This document shows, piece after piece, positions 24,204 through 36,131 of a stretch of DNA of 36,131 bases; the first letter of the stretch is position 1, and every line of letters starts with the position of its first letter. The position numbers and the translations under genes are program-made. Below the pieces are notes generated by a model, which was not told where the DNA came from, made no database searches, and was given only the letters and a program-made list of their open reading frames with translations. The stretch comes from Chloroflexaceae bacterium (lineage in GTDB: Bacteria; Chloroflexota; Chloroflexia; Chloroflexales; Chloroflexaceae), in assembly GCA_012031225.1 (NCBI GenBank), contig JAAUTZ010000028.1, positions 3,130 through 39,260 on the forward strand, given 5' to 3'.

Positions 24204-24344
24204 ATCCTGTTCCCCTACAGTAAATGCGAATCTATTCAACCGCAAGTTTCTGCTGGTATCATAGCAGAGGCAACTCGCTTTAGCTATGGGTCAAGAGTCC
24301 TGAGATAAATAGGGATCAGATGTCCGGTGGCGGGGATGGCATCG

Positions 24345-24380
24345 CACGAAGGGCACGAAGGGCACGAAAGACACGAGGGA
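24345..24380 (+). repeat. Four 9-bp tandem units (CACGAAGGG type) at the mobA 5' end
   Basis: Four successive nine-base units: CACGAAGGG twice, CACGAAAGA, CACGAGGGA. In one frame they encode HEG HEG HER HEG. Related units occur just before the mobA stop (25054-25071). Confidence 0.8.
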
Positions 24381-24393
24381 CACAACGCACAGC

Positions 24394-25077
24394 ACAACCG
24401 GCATTATCCTAGCGGGCGGGCAGAGCCGCCGGATGGGGCAGGACAAACGCCGCCTGCGCCTGTGGGGGCCAACTGCGCCAACCCTGCTAGAGCATACCTG
24501 CGCCGTGCTGACCCCGCTCTGCACGGCTACGCTCGTGGTATTTGCCGATGCGGAGGATGCGGCGGCGTGGCACTTGCCGGGCATACAGGCCGTGTGGGAT
24601 GCCGCCCCCGATGCGGGGGTGCCCGCCGCGCTGGTAGCGGGCTTGCAGGCGATGGCTACGCCGCACGCGCTGGTGGTTGCCGCCGATCTGCCCCTGCTCA
24701 ATGCGGCTCTGCTCACCGCGCTGCGCGACGATCCACGCCCGTGCGATCTGCTCGTGCCGCGTGCCCTGCACACCCGCACCCGCAATGCGTGGCACGCCGA
24801 ACCACTCCACGCCCGCTATGCCCAAAGCTGTCTGCCGATGTTGCAGGCGATGGTGGCGCGGGGGCAGCGGCGCATCACCGATCTATTGGCGCAGGTGCAG
24901 GTGGCGTGGTTTGAGCCGGAGCAGACACGCCAATCCGATCCGCACGGGTATTCGTTCCTGAATATCAACACCCCGTCTGATCTCGCACAGCTACAGGCTG
25001 TGCTACACTATAATCCTGAACCAAATACGTTTCAAAGGTCAGAGAAGACAGACCACGAAGAACACGAAGGTAGGTGA
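24394..25077 (+). CDS. mobA: Molybdenum cofactor guanylyltransferase, MobA-like, start codon not evident
   Basis: MobA transfers GMP to molybdopterin to make the guanine dinucleotide cofactor. The frame contains the family loop TGIILAGGQSRRMGQDKRR, then VVAADLPLLN with the metal-binding Asp, and FLNINTPSDL. The first in-frame ATG (24433) would remove the LAGG half of the nucleotide-binding loop, and between the in-frame stop at 24310 and that ATG there is no ATG, GTG or TTG. The given start is the approximate start of homology; initiation might use a rare ATT/ATC (24403/24406) or the gene may be damaged. The C-terminal TDHEEHEGR is repeat-derived. It precedes a molybdopterin oxidoreductase that would need the cofactor. 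Confidence 0.75.
   Translation, partial: TTGIILAGGQSRRMGQDKRRLRLWGPTAPTLLEHTCAVLTPLCTATLVVFADAEDAAAWHLPGIQAVWDAAPDAGVPAALVAGLQAMATPHALVVAADLPLLNAALLTALRDDPRPCDLLVPRALHTRTRNAWHAEPLHARYAQSCLPMLQAMVARGQRRITDLLAQVQVAWFEPEQTRQSDPHGYSFLNINTPSDLAQLQAVLHYNPEPNTFQRSEKTDHEEHEGR
25054..25071 (+). repeat. Two 9-bp units (CACGAAGAA type) at the mobA 3' end
   Basis: CACGAAGAA and CACGAAGGT follow one another and encode the HEEHEG tail of the mobA frame. They belong to the same family as the units at 24345-24380. Confidence 0.7.
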
Positions 25078-25119
25078 CTAGGTGAGTCAGTTGTAATCCG
25101 TGACACCCGCCACGCACCA

Positions 25120-25149
25120 CCTGAAACCTAGTACCTGAGACCTGATACC
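25120..25149 (+). repeat. Heptamer tandem repeat (CCTGANA)
   Basis: Four seven-base units, CCTGAAA, CCTAGTA, CCTGAGA and CCTGATA, lie just before the oxidoreductase gene. On the other strand they read as CAGG-T-N-T units, the same family as the satellite at 36090-36131. Confidence 0.75.
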
Positions 25150-36089: not shown

Positions 36090-36131
36090 CAGGTGTCAGG
36101 GGTCGGGTGTCAGGTGTCAGGGGTCGGGTGT
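36090..36131. repeat. Heptamer satellite running off the right edge
   Basis: Two perfect 21-base copies (36090-36110 and 36111-36131), each made of three heptamers: CAGGTGT, CAGGGGT, CGGGTGT. It begins four bases after the prpE stop and may continue beyond the window. Same family as 25120-25149 on the opposite strand. Confidence 0.9.

Follow-up and report, generated by a model that had tools for sequence, protein, structure and literature searches.

How does a gene begin if its reading frame is intact but offers no start codon? The question is raised by a mobA-like gene in the window analysed here, a stretch of 36,131 nucleotides from a Chloroflexales draft genome of 205 contigs. We compared it with the sister species, an uncultured Chloroflexales bacterium (CALCJV010000080.1), so that all comparisons within the genus involve two genomes, both draft assemblies, and with homologues from other genera of the order.

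A mobA frame without a canonical start

The mobA frame is open from stop to stop (Table 1), ends with TGA at 25075-25077, and its 254 codons contain neither stops nor frameshifts. Yet none of the codons at 24313-24432 is ATG, GTG or TTG, and the earliest canonical start in the frame is ATG 24433. The conserved motif TGIILAGGQSRRMG begins in the same frame at ACC 24397, and translation from ATG 24433 would omit its first 12 residues, up to RR. The original prediction, made from the letters alone, is thus borne out on two points: the motif follows the TAG at 24310 in frame without a usable start, and starting at 24433 would delete half of the nucleotide-binding loop. By chance alone, 28 codons without a canonical start are not rare; the stretch is notable because a conserved domain follows.

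Table 1. Positions in the window of the mobA frame, the repeat DNA at its two ends and the candidate start signals.
Feature	Positions	Strand	Evidence or remark
Spacer poorly alignable to the sister genome	24302..24396	+	homology is lost after about 24301 and returns at 24396/24397
In-frame TAG, closes the mobA frame upstream	24310..24312	+	sequence
Dispersed composite repeat copy: degenerate 7-mers (about 24310-24340), then CACGAAGRN 9-mers	24310..24380	+	nhmmer E 4.9e-12
mobA-like open frame	24313..25077	+	molybdenum cofactor guanylyltransferase, NTP_transf_3 domain
9-mer array CACGAAGGG CACGAAGGG CACGAAAGA CACGAGGGA CACAACGCA	24345..24389	+	TRF period 9
GAGGG, best Shine-Dalgarno-like stretch near mobA	24375..24379	+	predicted duplex -6.8 kcal/mol
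ACG, candidate near-cognate start (MHSTTGIILAGG...)	24385..24387	+	putative; 5 nt after GAGGG
Codons for TGIILAGGQSRR	24397..24432	+	against the sister, one synonymous change, amino acids identical
ATT, second candidate near-cognate start (MILAGG...)	24403..24405	+	putative; kept in the sister, there after AAGGAGGT
ATG, first canonical in-frame start; its use would cost the protein most of its nucleotide-binding loop	24433..24435	+	sequence
Second CACGAAGRN array, in the mobA frame at its 3' end	25054..25077	+	adds HEEHEGR to the C terminus

Judged by its sequence, the encoded protein is a MobA-type nucleotidyltransferase. It shares with known MobA proteins the NTP_transf_3 domain (Pfam PF12804, 91.4 bits against a gathering score of 27), the nucleotide-binding motif LAGGxSxRMGxDK, which reads LAGGQSRRMGQDK from 24409, and an alignment spanning nearly the full length of its best solved relatives, the MobA structures 3ngw and 1e5k. 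It differs from them in having no canonical start, in scoring 85.6 bits against the NCBIfam MobA equivalog TIGR02665, below the cut-off of 151.85 (as do the sister and the relatives scanned likewise, at 76-91 bits where listed), and in reading GVPAA in place of the GPLGG-like loop. The latter change is found in both genus members, while 26 or more of the 28 relatives keep the GG. When the MobA of the genus (window 24397-25020) is set against the residues invariant in 26-28 of these 28 relatives, further departures are seen at residue 53 (N to E or D) and residue 49 (L to F or Y). Because several residues invariant elsewhere are no longer present in the genus, constraint on its MobA may have been relaxed, or its function may have shifted.

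The two MobA proteins are 92% identical, gene order is shared, and in both species the gene after mobA encodes an oxidoreductase with a molybdopterin-dinucleotide-binding domain. The window genome also contains moaA. The original prediction had proposed a search for a second mobA: none was found across this genome, where the only further match had an E-value of 0.1.

We examined 28 mobA homologues from other genera of the order, and each has a canonical start 2-17 codons before the motif. So has the sister, with a GTG in the mobA frame nine codons before it. In the window, ATG 24433, the first canonical start of the frame, could be the beginning of a protein devoid of the nucleotide-binding loop. 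But such a start would remove LAGGQSRR, which is conserved in relatives, and the 36 bases before it differ from the sister at a single synonymous site, in contrast with the poorly alignable spacer that precedes them. We regard its present use as highly improbable. Nor is it the ancestral start, judging from the 12 codons before it, which show no amino-acid change between the two species in a gene with a dN/dS of 0.16. Purifying selection and these unchanged motif codons together argue that, over most of the recent past of mobA, translation has included the motif.

Selection on the gene also bears on whether mobA is now decaying. The start might have been lost recently, and in the window lineage only, through its replacement by the repeat described below or through subsequent drift of that repeat, leaving the gene barely translated. 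Several observations fit such a loss: the dN/dS of mobA is higher than that of the neighbouring oxidoreductase (0.054), the MobA of the genus departs from residues invariant in its relatives, and in the window no strong Shine-Dalgarno sequence accompanies a good near-cognate start. Yet the frame has accumulated neither stops nor frameshifts, amino-acid changes are spread over both lineages without a clear excess of substitutions in that of the window, and no other mobA was found in a genome that keeps moaA and a dinucleotide-cofactor enzyme. A recent loss is a serious alternative, albeit an unlikely one.

Repeat DNA at the start of mobA

Homology between the two species resumes exactly at the MobA motif, and the spacer that precedes it in the window belongs to a dispersed repeat family. 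A model built from 15 other copies, with the window spacer left out, recognised this spacer with the E-value given in Table 1, while all shuffles scored below 4 bits; the sister spacer matched weakly (6.3 bits), yet above all shuffles. The 9-mer core matches 107 times in the window genome and 84 times in that of the sister; the reversed control gives 0 matches. Copies from both genomes, once aligned, share a layout in which CACGAAGRN 9-mers come after a tract of degenerate, AGGTGTC-like 7-mers. The tandem 9-mers that had been noticed next to the missing start are part of this family. The CACGAAGRN repeat is also abundant in another genus of the same bacterial family (155 matches), in whose genome no mobA was found. 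A literature search, limited to one 16-base string, found no published account of the repeat.

The two halves of the repeat have different coding properties. Arrays of the consensus 9-mer have neither stop nor canonical start in any forward frame, whereas heptad arrays such as AGGTGTC provide GTG in every frame. The window mobA frame is open but startless because the 9-mer units lack both kinds of codon. The canonical starts that the window repeat does carry, ATG 24320, GTG 24327 and ATG 24336, are outside the mobA frame. The original prediction suggested that translation could enter from the HEGHE frame. Ribosomes would then have to start at GTG 24327 or ATG 24336 and shift by +1 into mobA. 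These codons exist and the HEGHE frame is open through the array, but visual inspection revealed no recognisable +1 shift site, and the sister, with its GTG already in the mobA frame, neither needs nor conserves anything comparable. The suggestion is not supported, and we deem this route extremely improbable.

The sister spacer, read in steps of seven bases (AGGTACT GGGTGGT AGGTGGC ATGTGGC AAGTGTT CGGTGTA AGGAGGT AACTGGC), is a decayed array of eight 7-mers, with a period-7 identity of 29/49 (p at most 0.0004), whose end abuts exactly the ATT of TG-I-I-LAGG. Its heptad ATGTGGC carries the GTG start, and its heptad AGGAGGT is a perfect Shine-Dalgarno sequence before the ATT. In the same period tests, the 7-mer part of the window is short and weakly periodic (p 0.01 to 0.16).

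Repeat DNA is also fused to the other end of the gene. In the sister, as in the window, the mobA frame continues into a related 9-mer array at its 3' end, which becomes part of the C terminus. The lack of stops in every forward frame of the 9-mer repeat explains why frames fused to it remain open at either end of mobA. Just downstream of the C-terminal array, at 25119-25149, the window has a degenerate tandem repeat of 7-base units (ACCTGAT-like). Elsewhere in the window there is a different tandem repeat at 948-1025 (unit TTCGCGGCCCTC, 12/24 bases) and, at the window end, a further heptad array at 36090-36131 (CAGGTGTCAGGGGTCGGGTGT, 2 copies of 21).

Among the repeat arrays retrieved, mobA was the only clear case of a known gene with an array against its start. 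The best lead was a pair of loci in the window genome (L186 on contig C175 and L187 on contig C145), where a near-identical short open frame has the composite repeat fused at its 5' side and the number of 9-mers differs between copies. We rejected it as a further overwritten start, since both copies carry the array and there is thus no empty site.

Candidate start codons

Initiation at a near-cognate codon is the most likely single explanation of how mobA would be translated at present. As this is the only mobA found and it has been under purifying selection, translation most likely still covers the whole nucleotide-binding loop, and the sequence offers two candidates from which this could happen at a low level. 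ACG 24385 lies behind the best Shine-Dalgarno-like stretch and would give an N terminus of a length usual among relatives. ACG differs from ATG by one base and usually initiates poorly. Moreover, every unit of the window array brings an in-frame ACG, so that chance alone would be expected to place one close to a run of purines. ATT 24403 would produce the shortest N terminus of all those compared, and its predicted Shine-Dalgarno duplex is +1.2 kcal/mol (none), against -12.5 kcal/mol for the ATT of the sister.

Starts of this kind have a precedent in the lineage, by analogy with infC. In both genus members infC starts at ATC behind AAAGGAGT. Across the order, in the other genera where the start site could be read, the infC start codon is ATT, ATC or ATA, and an AAGGAG-like Shine-Dalgarno sequence is conserved before it. 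AUU start codons are likewise used by infC and pcnB of Escherichia coli (PMC9410913). The window candidate resembles these starts in being non-ATG, but the infC pattern combines an ATH codon with a strong Shine-Dalgarno sequence at 5-9 nt, and for the ATT of mobA such a sequence is present in the sister only. Hence, the earlier proposal of initiation at ATT or ATC gains plausibility from infC and loses some from the window itself, where it is ACG 24385 that has a Shine-Dalgarno-like stretch.

The search for an unusual codon would be misplaced if most cells had a canonical start that is missing from the assembly, owing to a wrong base, a misassembled repeat or a strain variant. The genome is a 205-contig draft, tandem repeats are prone to collapse, and many spacer codons, such as ACG 24385, need a single base change to become a start codon. 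However, gain or loss of whole 9-mer units creates no start, as the units have none, and base accuracy looks good because the coding stretches compared between the two genomes contain no net frame-breaking indel. An artefact or variant of this kind seems improbable to us but is, like recent loss, a serious rival.

Origin of the startless gene

Overall, we think it likely that repeat DNA replaced the native start of mobA. The idea that a repeat had inserted or expanded over this start is strengthened by the membership of the spacer in a dispersed family, by the 7-mer spacer of the sister and by the resumption of homology at the motif. Its timing needs revision: the repeat was probably present at mobA before the two species split, and it is the 9-mer part that differs between them. 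A relative with an evident start in the same region would speak against the idea, and the sister has one in its GTG, but that codon lies in non-homologous repeat DNA.

As mobA directly adjoins repeat DNA of this family in both species, a single replacement before the split is the simplest history. The genus 7-mer/9-mer repeat would have replaced the native start region, and each species would then have rewritten it by different growth and decay. The sister would have kept the 7-mer half, whose usable start would be the heptad-borne GTG or the ATT behind the perfect Shine-Dalgarno sequence. In the window, the 9-mer half would have come to adjoin mobA, leaving the frame open yet startless and the full loop translated weakly from ACG 24385 or ATT 24403. 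We hold this complete scenario, with early replacement, separate rewriting and low-level near-cognate translation, only tentatively, as it is slightly more apt to fail in one of its parts than to hold in all. The loss in the genus of residues invariant in relatives, such as GVPAA for GPLGG, also fits relaxed constraint.

If replacement by repeat DNA is the right explanation, the two sister species show side by side a gene caught in transition, after repeat DNA has taken its start and before a new one is established. There is also a practical consequence, because gene finders requiring ATG, GTG or TTG would annotate this mobA from 24433 onwards, without its catalytic loop. It is tempting, if doubtful, to generalise: the repeats of this genus might repeatedly overwrite gene starts, with units adopted as Shine-Dalgarno sequence and start, as AGGAGGT and the GTG in the sister, and with near-cognate starts serving as a bridge, as in the window.

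For the repeat itself, a known parallel is provided by the TAACTGA heptamers of Beggiatoaceae, intergenic tandem repeats of which many end at a start codon and cover the ribosome-binding site (PMC4679880). Like them, the repeat of this genus consists of short tandem 7-mers dispersed between genes and found beside start codons. It differs in sequence and in having 9-mers mixed in. Finally, the Beggiatoaceae genes keep their start, whereas the window mobA has lost it.
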